From positions 1,922,001 to 1,986,000 of the forward strand of contig NZ_CP114052.1 in assembly GCF_027125355.1 (NCBI RefSeq): a stretch of 64,000 bases of DNA, given 5' to 3'. The translations under genes were made by a program, and so were the position numbers. The notes beneath the pieces are model-generated. The model saw nothing but the letters and a program-made list of their open reading frames with translations. It made no database searches and was not told where the DNA came from. The stretch is from Peptostreptococcus equinus. Its GTDB lineage: Bacteria; Bacillota; Clostridia; Peptostreptococcales; Peptostreptococcaceae. Positions 29,116 to 38,798 of this stretch are shown in pieces. How positions within the stretch are numbered: position 1 is the first letter of the stretch; every line of letters starts with the position of its first letter.

Positions 29116-31494
29116 TTAGTTCATATTTAAAATCTCTGTTACAGATTGACTGTGTTCTCCTGATCCAACTTGAATTATATTCTTAAAAGTTTTTGATTTT
29201 AACACTCTTACTTGTTCAGAACTTAGGCTTCCATGACTTATAACTAAAGGTGATTTTGTTTTCGCAGCGTATACTCCTACCGCTAATCCATCTACTAATG
29301 AATCTAAATTTGGATAGCCATCCTTTGCGACAAAAACATTATCTAATTGAGCCATAGGATAGAATTTCTCAATAATTTTAGCATTTGTGTCATTTCTAGT
29401 ATCTCCGCTCAATCTAGTAACTCCAGCTAATTGCCTATCTACATCTATAGGAACATTAGAAGTTCCTCCTAGCACATACGATTCAACTAACTTTGATTTA
29501 TCAATAAAGCTAGGTAAACTAAATGTTCCATTTTTGCTAGTAAGTAAAATTGGTATATTTTTTTCTCCAGATATTGGAGAAAAACTTATTGCATCTGGTA
29601 GTCCATTGTATCCATTCACTACAGATACCTTTGTTATATCCCCACTCATACTTCTCACTTGATCTGCTATTTTTTCGCTAGTTTCAATTCTTGAGTTTCC
29701 TGCTAATCTATCCACCTTGTAAGTTTTTCTCAATTCATCTTCAATCGATTTTGAAACAGAAGATTCTCCACCAATTATAGTTATATTTTTTGCATTTAAA
29801 TTTTTAATTTCTTGATATGTATTTGAATTTAAACTTGTGCTACCTGTAAGCAATATAGGAGCATCCTTTAACTTTGCAAGAGATGTAGCTGTAAGTGCAT
29901 CCGCTATTGCAGACGAATTAACTAGTATTACATTATCACTTCCTTTAGGAAATGCTTCTTTTGCTATTTCTATAGCAGTTTCGAATCTAGTATTTCCTGA
30001 TAATAATTTAGTATTTGTACTCAAATTCGCTTTATCTGTAATAGCCTTTATCGACAGATTAGTAGGTTTAAATTCTTTTATTGTATTAAGATCCACAAAA
30101 TACCCATTTTCATATGTATAACTTTCTCCTAAAGATGCTTTTGGCACAAATAAGGAACTATTATTTAAAGCATCCTCTGCCCCTAAAGATGGCAATCTTC
30201 CAGAGCTATTACTAATCTTAACAGCAATAGAACCATATCCACTTGGCAATTTATAGTCATTTATATCTATTGTAGTATAGCCTGAATGATCTACTATACC
30301 TGATTTTAGAAAAGTTTTCTGTGTATTACTTGGAACTCCATTTGGAGATGGCACAAAGTATAACTCATATTTTGCGCCTACAGTATCAGTATAAAACATA
30401 ACGCTCTTTAATATTTCATTATTTCCAAATTTAAATTTATTAGCTCCCATTATTTGCCCATCATTTGAAAAAATAGTTGCTAATAATGAGTATTCATGCT
30501 GATATATTTTTTGATTTTTAGAATCCCTAGCATTCATTATTGCAAAATTATCATCAGAAGACATTATGTTGGTATCTTCGTATGAAATCCAATAATATCC
30601 ATTTTCTCCTTCTTCAGATCCCCAGCTACTTTTTACAAGCCATGCTCCATTACTATTAGGCATACGATTATATCCATCAAAGTTAAAACGTGGATAATTG
30701 TTATTCCATCCTACTATATCTATTGCGTGATTTTGACCATCAGATTCCCCTGAGTAAATTGATTTTCTATCTGTACCTATGTACTTCTCACTGTGCATAT
30801 ATCCTGACGTCACCGAACCATATTTTAATATAGCATTTTTTATAGAAGTGGCATTATTAGATACCTTCATTACATCAGTAACCTTGTATGGAGACAAAGG
30901 TGCACTATCAAAATTAGTTGGTTTTGTTGCTCCTTCTGTATCTTTTACAGTTCCATTATATGGTATATCTTTTTCCATTTTTGGACCTGACCATGAAGTA
31001 AAATATCCTACTGCTGTATCATTATAAGACCCTTCTTCATCTGAAATATCCCAGTTATATATACCACCTTTAGCCCACCATCTCATATGTTCTTCACTAA
31101 AATCATTATATCCCATATTATTTTTTAATAAATATGTCTCAAATGCAGATATTCCTGCAAATGCCCAACATATACCTAAATTTTGCTGATTTTTTACGGA
31201 AGTCATATAGTTTAGAGGCCTTGGATCATATGATGTTGACGCTGATGTATAAGTCCCAGTAGTAGCTCTTTTTATATAATTTCTAAGTTCCGTTCCCTTT
31301 TCATTTTTATTTGTAATACTTAAATTACCACTAGTAACTGTTTGATTATTAGTCTTTCCAGGTACAAAGTAAGGTTTTAAATTTTTATTATCTTCACCAT
31401 ATACACTAAAAATACTACCTGATAATATTGTTAATGTTAATACAGATGTTATTGCTTTTTTTACTAGAATTCCTTTATAATTTCTATTTGCCAT
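29116..31494 (-). CDS. Cell-surface papain-like cysteine protease with three CWB2 repeats (Cwp84-like)
   Basis: This secreted protein of about 792 residues has a signal peptide (1-33), a C1 peptidase domain (about 90-310) and, after a linker, three cell-wall-binding type 2 repeats (about 500-600, 600-697, 697-792). The layout resembles Clostridioides difficile Cwp84, which matures the S-layer precursor. Catalytic Cys109 (LGICWAFAG) and His256 (GQNHAIDIVGW) are present, but the position of the expected Asn reads Ser289 (VKSSWG instead of VKNSWG). I start at MANRNYK with GAAAGG 7 bases upstream. It would sit on the wall bound to a secondary polymer. Confidence 0.9.
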   Translation of the reverse strand: MANRNYKGILVKKAITSVLTLTILSGSIFSVYGEDNKNLKPYFVPGKTNNQTVTSGNLSITNKNEKGTELRNYIKRATTGTYTSASTSYDPRPLNYMTSVKNQQNLGICWAFAGISAFETYLLKNNMGYNDFSEEHMRWWAKGGIYNWDISDEEGSYNDTAVGYFTSWSGPKMEKDIPYNGTVKDTEGATKPTNFDSAPLSPYKVTDVMKVSNNATSIKNAILKYGSVTSGYMHSEKYIGTDRKSIYSGESDGQNHAIDIVGWNNNYPRFNFDGYNRMPNSNGAWLVKSSWGSEEGENGYYWISYEDTNIMSSDDNFAIMNARDSKNQKIYQHEYSLLATIFSNDGQIMGANKFKFGNNEILKSVMFYTDTVGAKYELYFVPSPNGVPSNTQKTFLKSGIVDHSGYTTIDINDYKLPSGYGSIAVKISNSSGRLPSLGAEDALNNSSLFVPKASLGESYTYENGYFVDLNTIKEFKPTNLSIKAITDKANLSTNTKLLSGNTRFETAIEIAKEAFPKGSDNVILVNSSAIADALTATSLAKLKDAPILLTGSTSLNSNTYQEIKNLNAKNITIIGGESSVSKSIEDELRKTYKVDRLAGNSRIETSEKIADQVRSMSGDITKVSVVNGYNGLPDAISFSPISGEKNIPILLTSKNGTFSLPSFIDKSKLVESYVLGGTSNVPIDVDRQLAGVTRLSGDTRNDTNAKIIEKFYPMAQLDNVFVAKDGYPNLDSLVDGLAVGVYAAKTKSPLVISHGSLSSEQVRVLKSKTFKNIIQVGSGEHSQSVTEILNMN

Positions 31495-31648
31495 AAATTT
31501 ACCTTTCTTCAAATAAAATATATAAATTTATATATTTTTGTATAAAATTCTTCAATTATATACTATCATTAAATAGCAATATTTTCAAGCTATTAGCCAG
31601 TTTACAGCTATTTTTTTAAATATAAAACTGCTTTTTCTTTTTAATATA

Positions 31649-31707: not shown

Positions 31708-32466
31708 TTATCTTAAATATACATACTCATCTTTTGGTTTTTTAACCCTTTCAAATTCTACATCATACATAATAGGTAAGGTCTCTAAATTATAAGTTAT
31801 ATCATGATTATCTTTTATTTTTCCCTTTACCAAATACCATTGATTATTTTGTAATTTTTCAAATCCTGAATCTTTATATATAAAACCACATGGCTGTAAA
31901 TCTGCCATACAACACACCATTCCTAACCTACCCAAAACAATAAACTTTTCATTTTGACTAGAATCTTTAAATACTCTTACCAAAAATTTAAATTCTACAT
32001 CCTTATATGGTTCAAGGTTAAATACCGTCTCATAATACCATTTGACATACATGTCATCATTAACATCAATATAGTCTTTTCCATCTTTAGCAACATATAG
32101 CTTTTTGTTTGTCTTTTGAATATCTACATTTTTATTATTGTTTTTTGTGCTTATTTTTATAGATGTATTTTCTATATTTTGACTAAATTTAAATGCATTA
32201 TCATTTATATAAAAAGTACAGATTAATGGTATTGCTAGCACAAAGTAAGTAGCTATATTATTTATATGTTTTGCTTTTTCCATACTTTTAAATGACATAT
32301 ATGATAAAAATATTAAAAATATAGAACTTATTAATAATAAACCATTAAATTTGGGATGTACAAAACTGTTGATTTTTTTACTCTCTATTGCAAATAAAAT
32401 TGCAATAGCAAGTGATAGTTCTATTAATCCTTGTATTAGCATTTCTAAATTGATTCTTTTAAACAT
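31708..32466 (-). CDS. DUF1980 / TIGR03943-type membrane protein
   Basis: This 252-residue protein has about four N-terminal membrane helices (to residue about 95) and a soluble C-terminal domain ending in a motif like GMVCCMADLQPCGFIYKD, where CC..C could bind metal. It fits the DUF1980/YcgQ family, which is nearly always paired with a DUF318-type permease and is often zinc-regulated. Its ATG overlaps the stop of the upstream fusion gene by 8 bases (ATGTTTAA), so the two are translationally coupled and probably form one transporter. Confidence 0.85.
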   Translation of the reverse strand: MFKRINLEMLIQGLIELSLAIAILFAIESKKINSFVHPKFNGLLLISSIFLIFLSYMSFKSMEKAKHINNIATYFVLAIPLICTFYINDNAFKFSQNIENTSIKISTKNNNKNVDIQKTNKKLYVAKDGKDYIDVNDDMYVKWYYETVFNLEPYKDVEFKFLVRVFKDSSQNEKFIVLGRLGMVCCMADLQPCGFIYKDSGFEKLQNNQWYLVKGKIKDNHDITYNLETLPIMYDVEFERVKKPKDEYVYLR

Positions 32467-34033
32467 TCAGTATACCACCTCCGACTGAAGAAAATATAAC
32501 TAACGATACTATAGTCAGAAATAATATCATTTTAAATATGAACTTTTTATTGAATGTAGCTAACATCAAGGATACATTTGTAATATCTAACATAGGTCCC
32601 ATTACTAAAAAAGCCAATATAGCATTACTTGGCATTAAATTATAAAAACTTCTAGCCACAAAAGCATTAGAATTGCTACATACAGATATAAAAAATGCAG
32701 CAAATATCATGCTCAAAACAGATAAATAATTAATTTGATTTAAACTTATAAATACATATTTGGGGACAAAAACCTGTATGGATGCAGATATAAATGCACC
32801 TATTACCACATAGAATCCTATTTTATATAATTCATTTTTTGTGTGAAGGCTTATTGCTTCTAATTTTCCTACATCACTCCTATAATTGTAACTAATGCTT
32901 GATTCAGTTAACGTATACTTGTTTATATAGTCTTTTACCACTTCTTCTTTATCTCTTGCAAGCAATATAGTAATTATCCCTGCAAATACAGCTATACAAA
33001 TACCGAAACCAATTCTATAAAATACAAACATCGGTTGGTTAGGAAATGCATAATATGTTGATAATATTACTATTGGGTTGATTGCTGGAGCTGCTAATAG
33101 AAAAGTTATAGCAACGGGGATTGAATATCCCTTTTTAACTATAGAACTAGCTATAGGCACCATTGTGCAATCACAAACAGGGAAAAATAATCCTGCAAAC
33201 ATAGCAAATAACATAGATTTTACACTGGTTTTTTCAAATATTTTATCAAATTTCTCTTTCGGTATCAGCATCTGTATTAAACTTGATATTATTACTCCTA
33301 GTATTAAAAATGGTAATATTTGAATTAATATACTCAAAAATATAGCTAATATCCTTTCCACTTTGTTATTATAAAATTCATTAAAAAATACCTGACAAAA
33401 CATAACAAAAAAGTTAATAAATATAAATCCCAAAGCAAATTTTATTATTTGCTTATCAGATAGACTAATATTATTATTTATTATTAAGTTTCTATCATGT
33501 TCATCAAATTCACTCTTTAAATAAATTTTAGATGATTTGTTTATAGATTTTAATTTTGCTTTAATTAATTCTAATTCTTTTCTATTTTCAACATTATCTT
33601 CATCAAATTTTGTGATTATTATATAGTCACTATTATGAACTTTATCCAAAATAATATTTTCCATATTTTTTATATAATTTTCAAAACTATTATAATCAAT
33701 TGTATTTATTATATTTCTTATTTCATACCCTTTAGCTAATCTTCTTTTTAATAAATCTGATATCTCCCATACACCATTATATTCTATAATTACATAATCT
33801 GGATTGATATCATTTAATTTTTTATTGATAATGTCATCTTCTAATTGTCTTTTATTATTTATATTTATAACATTTATTTTATCTTTAAACAGATATTCCT
33901 CAAATCCCTCTTCACACTTTATTATTAATACTTTTTCTCTTTCTATATCCACTTCATTTAACAACATAGAGTTAATAAAAGATGTCTTTCCAGATTCAAA
34001 AAAACCAACAATTATATCAATATACTTTGTCAT
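32459..34033 (-). CDS. GTPase-like domain fused to DUF318-type permease
   Basis: This protein of about 524 residues joins two parts. Residues about 1-190 resemble a COG0523/CobW P-loop protein: Walker A GFFESGKTSF (8-17), DYVIIEYNGVW in place of the EPSG loop, and ITKFDE in place of NKxD. The CxCC metal motif of COG0523 proteins is absent. Residues about 200-524 form a permease of 8-10 helices with FFPVCDCTMVPIA and SVCSNSNAFVARS, typical of DUF318/YcgR-type permeases. In Bacillus these families are separate neighbouring zinc-regulated genes. GAGG lies 6 bases before the chosen ATG. Confidence 0.85.
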   Translation of the reverse strand: MTKYIDIIVGFFESGKTSFINSMLLNEVDIEREKVLIIKCEEGFEEYLFKDKINVININNKRQLEDDIINKKLNDINPDYVIIEYNGVWEISDLLKRRLAKGYEIRNIINTIDYNSFENYIKNMENIILDKVHNSDYIIITKFDEDNVENRKELELIKAKLKSINKSSKIYLKSEFDEHDRNLIINNNISLSDKQIIKFALGFIFINFFVMFCQVFFNEFYNNKVERILAIFLSILIQILPFLILGVIISSLIQMLIPKEKFDKIFEKTSVKSMLFAMFAGLFFPVCDCTMVPIASSIVKKGYSIPVAITFLLAAPAINPIVILSTYYAFPNQPMFVFYRIGFGICIAVFAGIITILLARDKEEVVKDYINKYTLTESSISYNYRSDVGKLEAISLHTKNELYKIGFYVVIGAFISASIQVFVPKYVFISLNQINYLSVLSMIFAAFFISVCSNSNAFVARSFYNLMPSNAILAFLVMGPMLDITNVSLMLATFNKKFIFKMILFLTIVSLVIFSSVGGGILNV

Positions 34034-34233
34034 GTCCATCCTCGCTTTCTTTTTAAAATATATTGTAATTATATTATAATACTATTAATGCAAATAACTC
34101 TCAAGTTTATTTGATATTTATTACTTAAATTATTGCTTATTGTTAATAAATCTTAATTAATTCTTATTTTCTTCTTTAAGTAAACTTTAGAAATACATTG
34201 TATACTGTTATTAGGTTTATAAAGGAGATACTC

Positions 34234-35178
34234 ATGACTAAAACAAAAATCAACATAATATCAGGTTTTTTAGGCGCTGGTAAAACTAGCTTTATAAAAA
34301 AAATTATCGACGAATCTAAAGATTTTAATAAAATAGCTATTATAGAAAATGAATTTGGTGAGGTAAGCATTGATGGACCTATACTTGAAGCTATTGGTGT
34401 AAATGTAAAAGAGATAAACGCTGGTTGTATATGTTGCTCTGTAGCAGGAAATTTTTCAAAAAGTCTTTTGGACATTAAAAAGAATTACGCACCAGAAAAT
34501 ATTCTTGTAGAACCCTCTGGTATTGCTAAATTATCAGATATTAAAGATATTTGTATGGAAAAAAAAGATCTGTTTGAATTTGGTATAATAGTTACAGTAG
34601 TAGATATTAGCAAATTTGATATGTATTTAAAAAATTTTGGCGAATTTTATGAAAATCAAATAAAAAACTCAAATACTATTGTTTTCAGTCGTTATCAAAA
34701 AGCTATTGAAAAAAAATTAGATATAGATAAAATTCTTGAAAAAATAAGAATTATAAACCCTAAATTAAATATTGTAAATAGTGAGTGGGATAACTTTGAG
34801 ATTTCTTCCATACTTCCATGCAATAAATTGAGTATGTTTTCTCCTAATATACACACTCATTACCATGAACCTGGAGAGTCTTGCTCTTGCCATGAAAATC
34901 ATGATCTTAATAGCGATTTTGAAAGTATAACACTAAATACAGATTTAGAAATGGATGAAAATAAACTCGAAAACATATTTAATGAAATAGAGAACTCTAG
35001 CGATTTAGGTAATTTATTAAGATCCAAGGGAAGTTTTAAATCTAATAATAAATCCCTAAGTTATGACTATAATTCTGGCGAACTAGAATTTAGATTTACA
35101 GACAAGAAAACAGAACACTATGTTATACTCATTGGTGAAAATTTAAATGAAGAAAAATTATCATCGATGTTTATATAA
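34234..35178 (+). CDS. COG0523 (CobW/YciC-like) metallochaperone GTPase
   Basis: This 314-residue G3E-family GTPase has Walker A GFLGAGKTSF (8-17), ENEFGEVSIDG, the metal-binding CICC motif, and VEPSG. The C-terminal part includes a metal-binding stretch with HTHYHEPGESCSCHENH. Such proteins supply zinc to enzymes under zinc starvation. I start at MTKTKIN because AAGGAG lies 7 bases upstream. It is divergent from the GTPase-permease fusion and close to znuABC, supporting a zinc role over cobalamin or nitrile hydratase roles. Confidence 0.9.
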   Translation: MTKTKINIISGFLGAGKTSFIKKIIDESKDFNKIAIIENEFGEVSIDGPILEAIGVNVKEINAGCICCSVAGNFSKSLLDIKKNYAPENILVEPSGIAKLSDIKDICMEKKDLFEFGIIVTVVDISKFDMYLKNFGEFYENQIKNSNTIVFSRYQKAIEKKLDIDKILEKIRIINPKLNIVNSEWDNFEISSILPCNKLSMFSPNIHTHYHEPGESCSCHENHDLNSDFESITLNTDLEMDENKLENIFNEIENSSDLGNLLRSKGSFKSNNKSLSYDYNSGELEFRFTDKKTEHYVILIGENLNEEKLSSMFI

Positions 35179-35405: not shown

Positions 35406-36188
35406 TTATCTTTTTACTATCATAGATAGTATTAGTGTAAGCACTCCTAGGAGTACAATTGTTCCTCCTGGTTTTAAGCCAAAATAATATGATAAACTTA
35501 AACCTACTATTGTAAATATTATAGCTAATATTATTGATATTATTACCGTTAGTTTATAACTTTTTGTAAATCTCATAGCACATGCCACTGGTATTACCAT
35601 TATTGATGATACAATTAGTGCACCTACAGTCCTAGATGCTATTGATACTGTCAAAGCTGTAAGTATGGTAAATACAAAATTTACTGCTCTTACAGGAACC
35701 CCAGACAACCTTGCTCCATTTTCGTCAAAGGCAATATGCATCAATTCCTTGTACAATAATATAAAAACAAGCATAACTATTATAGATAATGCTATTACTA
35801 AGTAAAGTTCAAAATCTGTAATAGCAACTATACTACCAAATAAAAAACTTGTAAATCCAGCTGAATTTGAAGTAAATCCAGATAGCACACCTGCTAGACC
35901 TACACCGGCAGACATTATTATAGCTATAGAAATTTCTGAGTACTTTGGAAACTTTTTTCTAATAAAGTCTATTCCAAAACCAGCAAAAACTGTTATTATT
36001 ACGGCTCCCAAAACTGGATTTATTCCTAATAATAAACCTCCTGCTACACCCGCCAAAGATGTATGGGAAAGTGCATCACCAAGCATTGATAGTCTCTTTA
36101 ATACAATTGTAACACCAATACAAGGAATAATAGCCGCCAGTAATATTCCAACCAAGAAGGCTTTTCTCATAAATTCATACTCTAACAT
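35406..36188 (-). CDS. znuB: Zinc ABC transporter permease ZnuB
   Basis: This 260-residue ABC-3 family permease has about eight helices (AFLVGILLAAIIPCIGVTIVLKRLSMLGDALSHTSLAG is the family N-terminus). It is the channel for zinc or manganese import. GAGGAGG lies ahead of the start, inside the end of znuC; the ATG overlaps the znuC stop by 7 bases (ATGTTAG), implying coupled translation. Zinc rather than manganese is inferred from the His-rich binding protein nearby. Confidence 0.92.
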   Translation of the reverse strand: MLEYEFMRKAFLVGILLAAIIPCIGVTIVLKRLSMLGDALSHTSLAGVAGGLLLGINPVLGAVIITVFAGFGIDFIRKKFPKYSEISIAIIMSAGVGLAGVLSGFTSNSAGFTSFLFGSIVAITDFELYLVIALSIIVMLVFILLYKELMHIAFDENGARLSGVPVRAVNFVFTILTALTVSIASRTVGALIVSSIMVIPVACAMRFTKSYKLTVIISIILAIIFTIVGLSLSYYFGLKPGGTIVLLGVLTLILSMIVKR

Positions 36189-36856
36189 CCTATAACCTCC
36201 TCAGAAAAATCATCTAATTCCAATATCTTTGTTGCATGACTTTTAATCTTTTTTATATCATGTGAAATCATAACAATACTAATATTCTTATTTTTGTGAA
36301 GATTGTCGAGTAAAGAGTATAGTGATTCTACCGACTTATGATCAATACCAGTAGTAGGTTCATCTAATATCAACAATTCTGGATTGTTTACTATAGCCTT
36401 TGCAATCATAACTCTTTGTTGTTGACCACCTGATAAATCCGAAAACTTACTTTTTTCATAGTCAAGCATATCCACTGTTTGAAGAGCTTTTTTTACCATT
36501 TCTTTATGTTTTACTTTTGAAAATTTAAATAAACCAATTTCTCTGTATAGATTCATCATAACAATTTCTCTAACCGTAGCAGGAAAATCAATACCTGTAG
36601 ATAATCCGACCTGGGATACATATCCTATATTAGAGGTAAATTTTCCTATTGCAGGATTTTTTCCATACAACAAAATTTCCCCTTTGCTTGGTTTTAATAT
36701 TCCCAACATAAGTTTAATGAGAGTACTTTTTCCACTACCATTTGATCCTATTATTCCTAAATAATCTCCACTATATATATCCAAATCTAAATTTTCTATT
36801 ACATACTCTTTATCATATTTAAAATACATATTTTTAATTTCTATAAGTTTTTTCAT
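36182..36856 (-). CDS. znuC: Zinc ABC transporter ATP-binding protein ZnuC
   Basis: This 224-residue ATPase powers the ZnuB channel. It has Walker A GSNGSGKST (37-45), signature LSGGQQQRV, Walker B LLILDEPTTG and the switch His in MISHD. GAGAGGAAAT precedes the start. It is 159 bases from znuA on the same strand; a hairpin and a 7-bp inverted repeat in that gap suggest partial separation of the two transcripts. Confidence 0.95.
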   Translation of the reverse strand: MKKLIEIKNMYFKYDKEYVIENLDLDIYSGDYLGIIGSNGSGKSTLIKLMLGILKPSKGEILLYGKNPAIGKFTSNIGYVSQVGLSTGIDFPATVREIVMMNLYREIGLFKFSKVKHKEMVKKALQTVDMLDYEKSKFSDLSGGQQQRVMIAKAIVNNPELLILDEPTTGIDHKSVESLYSLLDNLHKNKNISIVMISHDIKKIKSHATKILELDDFSEEVIGC

Positions 36857-37015: not shown

Positions 37016-38044
37016 TTATTTCAAAGCTTTTAATAATACATTTAGATTATTTTCCATTATAGAGAAATAATCTTCTCCCTTATCTAACTGGTCTTTTGTC
37101 AACCCTTCTAGCGGATTTAATACTTCTGTTTGAGCTCCTACTTCCTTTGCTATTGTCTTTGATACCTTTGGGCTCACTAGTTCTTCAAAAAATATATATT
37201 TAACATTATTTTCTTTTGCGAACTTTGTAATTTCAGCCATTCTTGATGCATCAGGCTCAGAATCCGGTGATAGGCCTTCAATTCCTATCTGCTTTAAACC
37301 ATAAGCATTTGCTAAATAACCAAAAGCTTCATGAGATACTATTATATCCTTTTTCTGAGTTTTTGACAATTCAGTCTTAAATTTGTTGTCAAGCTTATCC
37401 ATTTTTTCTGAATTCATTTTAAAATTTTCCTCGTAGTATGCCTTATTCTTAGGATCAGCCTTTATAAAAGCATCTTTAATATTCTTCATTTCTATTTTAG
37501 CATTTTGAGGATTTAGCCAAACATGAGGATCATATTCCCCATAATCATGTTCATGTTTGTCCTCATCTTTTTCATGATCATTGTGGTCCTTATCTCCTTT
37601 TTCATGATCATCTTTGTCTTTTGCATCGTCATGATCGTGATCATGATCTTCTTCAGATTTTAATAAACTTATCCCCTTTGAAGCTTCTACCTGCACTAAT
37701 TTATTATTTTTAACATTATCAGATACTTTATCTGCCCATGCTTCCATTCCTGCACCGCTGTATATAAAGACATCTGATTCACCAATTTTAGCTAAATCTT
37801 GCGGACTTGGCTCCCAATCATGCGGCTCTGTACCAGCTGGCACGAGATTTTTGACTTCTATCTTATCCCCACCTATTTTTTTTGCAAAATCATACATTGG
37901 ATAGAAGCTAGTATATACTTTTATCTTTTCACCGCTTTTGCGTGTATTCTTAACATCTCCTGACGTATTATTTGAGCTACATCCTGACAGAGCTATGGCT
38001 GATACTGTTAGTAGAGCTACTAATTTTTTTGAAATTTTTTTCAT
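37016..38044 (-). CDS. znuA: Zinc-binding lipoprotein ZnuA/AdcA
   Basis: This 342-residue substrate-binding protein delivers zinc to ZnuBC. A signal peptide ends in lipobox ALSGC (Cys at about 21). The metal-binding cluster A-1 fold follows, with His in GTEPHDWEPS, a His/Asp-rich loop near residues 125-165 (DHDHDHDD and HEHDYGEYDPHVW), HEAFGYL and DSEPDASR. The long His-rich loop is typical of zinc-specific members. It stands divergent from the Fur-family gene, with a strong promoter and perfect palindrome between them. Confidence 0.95.
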   Translation of the reverse strand: MKKISKKLVALLTVSAIALSGCSSNNTSGDVKNTRKSGEKIKVYTSFYPMYDFAKKIGGDKIEVKNLVPAGTEPHDWEPSPQDLAKIGESDVFIYSGAGMEAWADKVSDNVKNNKLVQVEASKGISLLKSEEDHDHDHDDAKDKDDHEKGDKDHNDHEKDEDKHEHDYGEYDPHVWLNPQNAKIEMKNIKDAFIKADPKNKAYYEENFKMNSEKMDKLDNKFKTELSKTQKKDIIVSHEAFGYLANAYGLKQIGIEGLSPDSEPDASRMAEITKFAKENNVKYIFFEELVSPKVSKTIAKEVGAQTEVLNPLEGLTKDQLDKGEDYFSIMENNLNVLLKALK

Positions 38045-38122: not shown

Positions 38123-38140
38123 ATGCATTTGCAAATGCAT
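38123..38140. promoter_or_regulatory. Perfect 18-bp palindrome, candidate Zur box
   Basis: ATGCATTTGCAAATGCAT is a perfect palindrome just downstream of the znuA -10 box, with a related half, TTTTGCATTTT, at 38144-38154. A repressor bound here would block znuA transcription. Assignment to Zur is inference from the adjacent Fur-family gene. Confidence 0.6.
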
Positions 38141-38160
38141 AACTTTTGCATTTTATTATG

Positions 38161-38342: not shown

Positions 38343-38798
38343 TTGGAAAATAATTATTATAATAAACAGAAAGAGATATTCACAAAAGAAAATGCTAATT
38401 TATTAAAGTCAGCTAATCTTAAAACAACTAAAAAAAGACTATTTTTAATAGACTGCCTAAAAAAATCCGAAGGTCCATTAACCGCTGAAGAAATACATAG
38501 AAAATTAAGACAAGATATAAATATAAATTTGTCAACTGTATATAGAGCCTTAAGTTCCCTAACTGAAGCTAATATAATAATAAGACAGGTTTTATCTGAT
38601 GGAAACAGTGTCTTTCAGTTAAATTCTGACCAACATAGACATATACTTACATGCAAAGATTGTGGTAAAATAACATATATAGATGTATGTCCTATTGATT
38701 CAGTACACAAAGAAATTGAAGATGCTACTGGATATGATATATTATCCCATAATCTTGAATTTATAGGAGTTTGTCCTGAATGCAAAAATAAAAAATAA
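38343..38798 (+). CDS. Fur family transcriptional regulator, probably Zur
   Basis: This 151-residue protein has a winged helix (LTAEEIHRKLRQDININLSTVYRALSSL) and a dimerisation domain with HRHILTCKDCG and CPECKN, two CxxC pairs for structural zinc. The start is TTG (38343) with AGGAAGTGA upstream; no early ATG exists. It lies next to znuA, divergent from it, so a zinc-uptake repressor is the best guess; PerR or Fur cannot be fully excluded. Confidence 0.88.
   Translation: MENNYYNKQKEIFTKENANLLKSANLKTTKKRLFLIDCLKKSEGPLTAEEIHRKLRQDININLSTVYRALSSLTEANIIIRQVLSDGNSVFQLNSDQHRHILTCKDCGKITYIDVCPIDSVHKEIEDATGYDILSHNLEFIGVCPECKNKK

Follow-up and report, generated by a model that had tools for sequence, protein, structure and literature searches.

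A P-loop NTPase domain fused to an ArsP_1 permease in a zinc-gene cluster of Peptostreptococcus equinus

What would be moved, in which direction and under what control, by a membrane permease that carries a P-loop domain in the same protein and lies among zinc genes? The question is raised by a protein of 526 amino acids (aa) encoded at 32459..34039 on the minus strand of a 64,000-nucleotide stretch of the Peptostreptococcus equinus genome (contig NZ_CP114052.1, positions 1,922,001 to 1,986,000; this whole stretch is called the window), in which a sequence-only reading had claimed a COG0523-like GTPase joined to a DUF318-type permease. The reading frame, Pfam, AlphaFold and 79 homologous fusions describe the protein as an ExNG-class G3E/CobW-like P-loop domain followed by an ArsP_1 permease. 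Together with its gene neighbourhood this supports a permease linked to zinc, whose conserved P-loop domain occurs together with a sister GTPase of the metal-binding kind.

Two domains in one reading frame

A single uninterrupted reading frame spans both domains, 526 aa being counted from the first ATG, and residue numbering follows this form. The previously drawn bounds of 32459..34033 were right as to the single frame and begin at the second ATG, a start option (524 aa) with GAGG 6 bases upstream. The joining of the two families was borne out by Pfam, with cobW (PF02492) at residues 9-172 (36.2 bits, cut-off 20.7) and ArsP_1 (PF03773) at residues 228-516 (200.8 bits, cut-off 32.3), both above cut-off. 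At E 1e-3, ArsP_1 was matched by 72 of 72 fusions scanned and PF02492 by 71 of 72. Genome-wide there was one ArsP_1 match and five cobW-domain matches, two of these inside the window cluster. The AlphaFold model has two confident domains (pLDDT 88.5, pTM 0.82).

The N-terminal NTPase-like domain occupies residues 1-190 (33470..34039, minus strand; Pfam, motif alignment and structure model), the fold itself running from about 3 to 190. It has a G3E fold with an intact Walker A (GFFESGKT, 12-19), followed in the window by E43 and G45, IEYNG (85-89) and TKFD (143-146). The P-loop fold on which the sequence-only reading had been made to depend is borne out by the model and by a profile match to YjiA in a search of Protein Data Bank (PDB) sequences (E 7e-17, residues 3-178), and structure comparison showed the fused G domain to be HypB/YjiA-like. 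All 80 fusions (the 79 and the window) keep the Walker A lysine and threonine, E43, G45 and E86 without exception, and CxCC is absent from the N domain of every one, so the description as a divergent CobW-type domain lacking CxCC holds. The claim that NKxD was mostly lost holds for the family, the G4 motif [NT]KxD being kept in 5 of the 80, and was overstated for the window, which keeps TKFD. The fused domain is not set apart by this loss, because 51 compared CxCC proteins also lack NKxD (48 have S at its first position and 39 have R at its second). CobW_C (PF07683) gave no match in the window fusion, in contrast to the neighbour at 34198-35178, and the YjiA residues mutated in PDB 4ixn (E37, C66 and C67) have no counterpart in the ExNG domains. 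On these aligned motifs the domain is assigned to a distinct class, named ExNG for the change from EPSG to ExNG, which also occurs as a separate gene and as a fusion to DUF1980_C. A canonical COG0523 metallochaperone identity is ruled out by the missing CxCC and CobW_C; judged by the defining motif, the protein has a G3E domain and yet is not a COG0523 metallochaperone.

The permease domain with its leading helix covers residues 192-526 (32462..33466, minus strand; Pfam, motifs, AlphaFold and fold comparison), the permease itself beginning at about 193, and carries PVCDC (287-291), NP (321-322), CS (454-455), D485 and N488. Its model has an internal repeat with broken helices and a fold resembling ArsB/DASS elevator transporters, the best fold match being the arsenite exporter ArsB. 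Foldseek found no match to the permease model at E 1e-3, and no solved relative was found by sequence up to E 0.1 in the PDB search. Two NCBIfam models matched below cut-off, SO_0444 Cu/Zn efflux (NF033936, 82.3 bits against 300) and SaoE efflux (NF040736, 63.8 against 325), and both were matched by 72 of 72 fusions. Identity with either of these efflux equivalogs was rejected on the window protein's scores.

Among the window's genome and 60 sampled relatives (61 genomes), 7 of the 9 that belong to the genus carry the fusion, the window's genome included, and a further genus of the family has it with 37% identity. A first scan of named genomes with the single protein as query gave no relative. 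A scan of named-species genomes with an alignment (A1) gave 138 relatives, and the best 80 were kept, which favours full-length fusions. The phylogenetic survey that the sequence-only reading had proposed thus returned both domains in one frame in 79 of these best 80 of 138, most of them of 510-550 aa. The fusion recurs across many anaerobes. The kept relatives are mostly Clostridia, with metagenome-assembled genomes labelled Anaerolineaceae (2), Synergistaceae (3), Desulfocapsaceae (1) and Paenibacillaceae (2). The fusion was rarer in evenly drawn samples, where it was found at full length in at least 8 of 196 genomes of the class, 4 of these in the window's genus, and in at least 5 of 398 genomes of the phylum, both counts being lower bounds since up to 7 (class) or 3 (phylum) candidates were scored per genome. 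A ninth genome of the class sample (G083) carries a longer fusion. Another 23 of the 398 had a strong match (E 1e-60 or better) not spanning both domains, 22 of them in frames of 302-381 aa, and these are thus mostly free permeases. A sequencing or assembly frameshift joining two adjacent genes, or a fusion that arose by chance in a single strain, is refuted because one frame runs through both domains in 79 of 80 loci, which come from many named genomes and several phyla, with seven Peptostreptococcus genomes carrying the same fusion and the two-domain model confident, although the two parts are separate adjacent genes in some other genomes (L123, L124).

A tree of the N domain was built from 107 rows, namely 44 fusions (the window, 40 of the 79, and L128, L134 and L135), 51 CxCC proteins, 10 ExNG-DUF1980_C fusions and 2 split proteins. 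The CxCC proteins separate as a group (100/100), as do the ExNG-DUF1980_C proteins (99/90), and the window clusters with other Peptostreptococcus fusions (100/97). The label 'fused' needs three changes on this tree, which is compatible with a single fusion and later splits as well as with several fusions. Two unusual forms were also seen. A 596-aa version of the fusion (L128:6943-8733) is extended in its middle part and sits on a very long branch, and a 600-aa ArsP_1 protein followed by DUF1980 (L161:3019-4821) has an N-terminal extension of about 300 residues without a match to the ExNG or the CxCC profile.

The cassette and its gene neighbourhood

The DUF1980/TIGR03943 protein (31708..32466, minus strand; Pfam, NCBIfam and alignment) lies downstream of the fusion gene and overlaps it by 8 nt. 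It also passes the TIGR03943 cut-off (100.6 bits against 88.8). The downstream coupling seen from the letters alone is upheld. R180, M183, C185, C186, D189, G194 and W210 are invariant among 49 aligned DUF1980 sequences. The window's protein has three hydrophobic stretches, and nothing convincing was found for it among PDB sequences.

For the cassette and its REARRANGEMENTS, within 9 kb, 80 loci (79 fused and one free) held DUF1980 in 80, a CxCC COG0523 gene in 70, znuA or znuB in 52 and fur in 46. Two gene orders recur, in whole or in parts: znuA-znuC-znuB-fur-COG0523-fusion-DUF1980 and fur-znuA-znuC-znuB-COG0523-fusion-DUF1980. In other arrangements the ExNG domain has a gene of its own, next to the permease gene (L123, L124) or following DUF1980 (L162), or is fused to DUF1980_C without a permease (11 cases: L041:404-1366, L125, L129-L133 and L137-L140), or the permease is free and accompanied by DUF1980 only. 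The additional loci, from 18 and 14 regions, were hand-picked from sample matches and not random. L135 duplicates L076 and L157 duplicates L096, so that 82 fused loci are 81 distinct ones and 18 free loci are 17, close strains being kept. Of the free loci, L040 is truncated where its contig ends, and L161 carries the N-terminal extension described above; L136, a distant permease below the score used, is in none of the classes.

A CxCC COG0523 gene lies within 6 kb at 73 of 82 fused, 2 of 3 split, 11 of 11 ExNG-DUF1980_C and only 2 of 18 free-permease loci (Fisher test, fused against free, p = 1.9e-10, with shared descent uncorrected and the non-fused loci hand-picked). It is therefore the ExNG domain and not the permease that the CxCC GTPase accompanies. 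In contrast znuA or znuB lies within 6 kb at 50 of 82 fused and 4 of 18 free loci and at none of the 3 split or 11 ExNG-DUF1980_C loci, so that the znu link belongs to the permease fusion and not to the ExNG class as a whole. DUF1980 is present at 81 of 82 fused and 18 of 18 free-permease loci (17 distinct). No CxCC gene was detected within 6 kb at nine of the 82 fused loci (L044, L057, L065, L067, L071, L110, L111, L116 and L118). At L065 it starts 6.2 kb away, at L110 the adjoining COG0523 gene has no CxCC match, and at L071, L111 and L116 the contig ends within 2.4 kb of the fusion gene. The ExNG-DUF1980_C fusions stand directly beside the CxCC COG0523 gene and are perhaps a soluble form of the same machine.

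In the window itself the divergent COG0523 gene, znuABC and the Fur-family gene were all present as first described. The CxCC COG0523 GTPase with CobW_C (34234..35178, plus strand; Pfam) begins at an ATG at 34234 after AAAGGAG, the tool-called open reading frame (ORF) beginning at a TTG at 34198. It is followed on the minus strand by znuB-like (ABC-3 permease, 35406..36188), znuC-like (ABC ATPase, 36182..36856) and znuA-like (zinc-binding component A, 37016..38044) genes, all recognised by Pfam, and on the plus strand by a gene for a Fur-family regulator (PerR, Fur or Zur; 38343..38798; Pfam and NCBIfam), for which the PerR and Fur models score best, below every NCBIfam cut-off shown. Another Peptostreptococcus locus (L037:3658-5400) has two extra transporter-like genes between znuA and znuC, one coding for a membrane-type protein of 313 aa and the other for an ABC ATPase-like protein. 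On the other side of the cassette a cell-wall protein (29116-31512, minus strand) combines a C1 papain-type protease, Lectin_like and three CWB2 stretches, and the same type of protein adjoins DUF1980 in 6 of 6 Peptostreptococcus relatives examined.

Palindromes of the 9-1-9 form upstream of the cassettes had 8 of 9 pairs in 15 of 75 regions (shuffle mean 6.5) and 9 of 9 in none. GCAAATG...CATTTGC recurred among these 15 regions and was then tested at spacing 5. The palindrome GCAAATGN5CATTTGC occurred in the 80 loci 13 times exactly (shuffle mean 0) and 18 times with one mismatch (shuffle mean 0.55), an enrichment that is not an independent test as the motif was counted in loci where it was first found. 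Looser matching gave 26 sites against 9.5 at two mismatches and 76 against 91.95 at three, the latter no better than chance. Sites with at most one mismatch were found in 26 of 80 loci, and for 30 of the 31 sites a cassette, znu or fur gene follows at no more than 350 nt. An exact copy stands 57 nt before the fusion ORF in L065, with a second before znuA, and another 123 nt before it in L067. The window has a candidate zinc-regulator box with one mismatch, GCAAATGCATAACTTTTGC (38131..38149, no strand assigned; shuffle mean 0.01), between znuA and fur, and the only other one-mismatch site genome-wide (258807) falls within a MerR-like reading frame and is probably there by chance. The palindrome may be the operator of a Zur-type regulator. 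The window's fusion gene, before which no such box stands, would be a putative member of a zinc (Zur) regulon.

Import, export or docking

The likeliest working, held tentatively, is nucleotide-regulated import of zinc or a zinc complex with hand-over to the CxCC chaperone. The cassette would be made under zinc shortage, and the cytoplasmic N-terminal G3E-like NTPase domain would regulate the permease and dock the soluble CxCC COG0523 metallochaperone. Through the region of C289/D290/C291 and C454, the elevator-type permease would deliver zinc, or a small complex of it, to the cytoplasmic side. Thiol sites, namely a CxC loop present in many homologues and the CC motif of DUF1980, would relay the metal to the CxCC GTPase, with release timed by nucleotide turnover at paired G domains. 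The idea of a nucleotide-gated metal transporter in the sequence-only reading is partly supported by the fusion, the predicted folds, the motif pattern across the family and the conserved cassette, while we infer zinc as the substrate, the inward direction, nucleotide binding, the pairing of the two GTPases and the hand-over.

Several observations weigh against import. Both NCBIfam models, matched far below cut-off, and the best fold match are exporters, so that family precedent does not favour it. G4 is kept so rarely that GTP use is uncertain. Within 6 kb, znuA/B is missing at 32 of 82 fused loci, and the window's protein and the six other Peptostreptococcus fusions lack the CxC loop. No box with up to one mismatch was found anywhere in 54 of 80 loci, nor any with up to four mismatches between the window's fusion and COG0523 genes. 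The ExNG-DUF1980_C fusions suggest that DUF1980_C lies inside the cell, whereas a DUF1980 protein of S. aureus is listed among lipoproteins in a table of one paper and would then be on the outer side, and this conflict also counts against import.

The same exporter precedents, SO_0444, SaoE and ArsB, are what a reversed direction would lean on. The protein would then expel wrong metals (Cu, Cd and Co entering via ZnuABC), a metal-thiol adduct or a zinc-scavenging ligand, its NTPase domain limiting leak and its expression in zinc shortage guarding against mismetalation. A B. anthracis study (PMC6336718) agrees with this in describing a separate ArsP_1 permease gene with two Zur boxes, whose upstream region binds Zur in vitro, the boxes lying upstream of the -35 and being read by the authors as activation by Zur. 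However, the cassette often sits with uptake genes, sharing their candidate box in some loci, and its usual partner is a chaperone-type CxCC GTPase, and export appears somewhat unlikely.

A doubtful further possibility, by analogy with the SRP (Ffh)-FtsY pair, is a carrier and its receptor: the soluble CxCC GTPase would carry zinc, the permease-fused ExNG NTPase would be its membrane receptor, and joint turnover would drive the hand-over. If so, the fusion would be an independently arisen zinc analogue of FeoB, and there would be a class of cargo-less 'receptor' G3E proteins.

The N domain could also be a dead or structural P-loop, a membrane anchor recruiting the CxCC COG0523 protein by G3E-type pairing, with the fusion as docking platform. 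The scarcity of G4, the lack of counterparts to the three YjiA residues changed in 4ixn and the close coupling to the CxCC GTPase even without a permease (all 11 ExNG-DUF1980_C loci) fit such a role. It is nevertheless quite improbable, as the residues invariant in 80 of 80 (the Walker A lysine and threonine, E43, G45 and E86) would be unneeded by a pure scaffold and the CxCC proteins, from a family with known GTPases, also lack NKxD. Export and docking both overlap in part with the import reading.

Comparison with known systems

The ScfA/YcgR and ScfB/YcgQ pair has the same ArsP_1 permease family and DUF1980/TIGR03943 partner as the window's fusion. Unlike the fusion, such free pairs have no NTPase domain and rarely a CxCC GTPase nearby. 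Section 11 of PMC5584981 describes scfAB/ycgRQ as a known free pair of unknown function, and the streptococcal and B. subtilis pairs without a zinc role; the fusion protein would give ArsP_1/DUF1980 pairs a functional frame. The ExNG-DUF1980_C fusions of other Clostridia share the NTPase class, the CxCC neighbour and the DUF1980_C domain, and differ in having no permease, the NTPase being joined to DUF1980_C, and no znuA/B within 6 kb. The permease model resembles ArsB, DASS and AbgT elevator transporters in overall fold and in its internal repeat with broken helices, and differs in lacking sequence or Foldseek matches at the thresholds given above.

The G domain fold and Walker A are common to the fusion and the COG0523/G3E metallochaperones (YjiA, ZagA/YciC, ZigA and CobW), from which it differs in lacking CxCC, a counterpart of E37 (80 of 80) and CobW_C, in having ExNG for EPSG, and in its attached permease. 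COG0523 proteins are characterised by CxCC and the family is called poorly understood in PMC9164220. The words permease, fused and fusion are absent from the main text of Haas et al. 2009. Among the matches listed, literature titles and abstract beginnings held no description of the fusion protein, and COG0523 and ArsP_1 were treated together only in the B. anthracis paper (PMC6336718). The fusion physically joins a sister G3E domain to a permease and so makes two general questions on COG0523 GTPases directly testable, namely where their zinc comes from and which partners they have at the membrane.

In FeoB the G domain comes first and the permease after. The likeness to the fusion lies in a G domain and a permease in one protein; the difference is that the fusion's G domain is HypB/YjiA-like and its membrane part ArsB/DASS-like, and FeoB Pfam domains are not among its four Pfam matches up to E 1. 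FeoB is the nucleotide-hydrolysing iron permease of the Feo system and uses GTP or ATP depending on the species, according to PMC9164220. The window's fusion looks like a zinc counterpart of FeoB in layout, built from parts of unrelated families and not itself a FeoB, and in that case evolution would have arrived twice, independently, at the joining of a nucleotide domain to a metal permease that FeoB shows.
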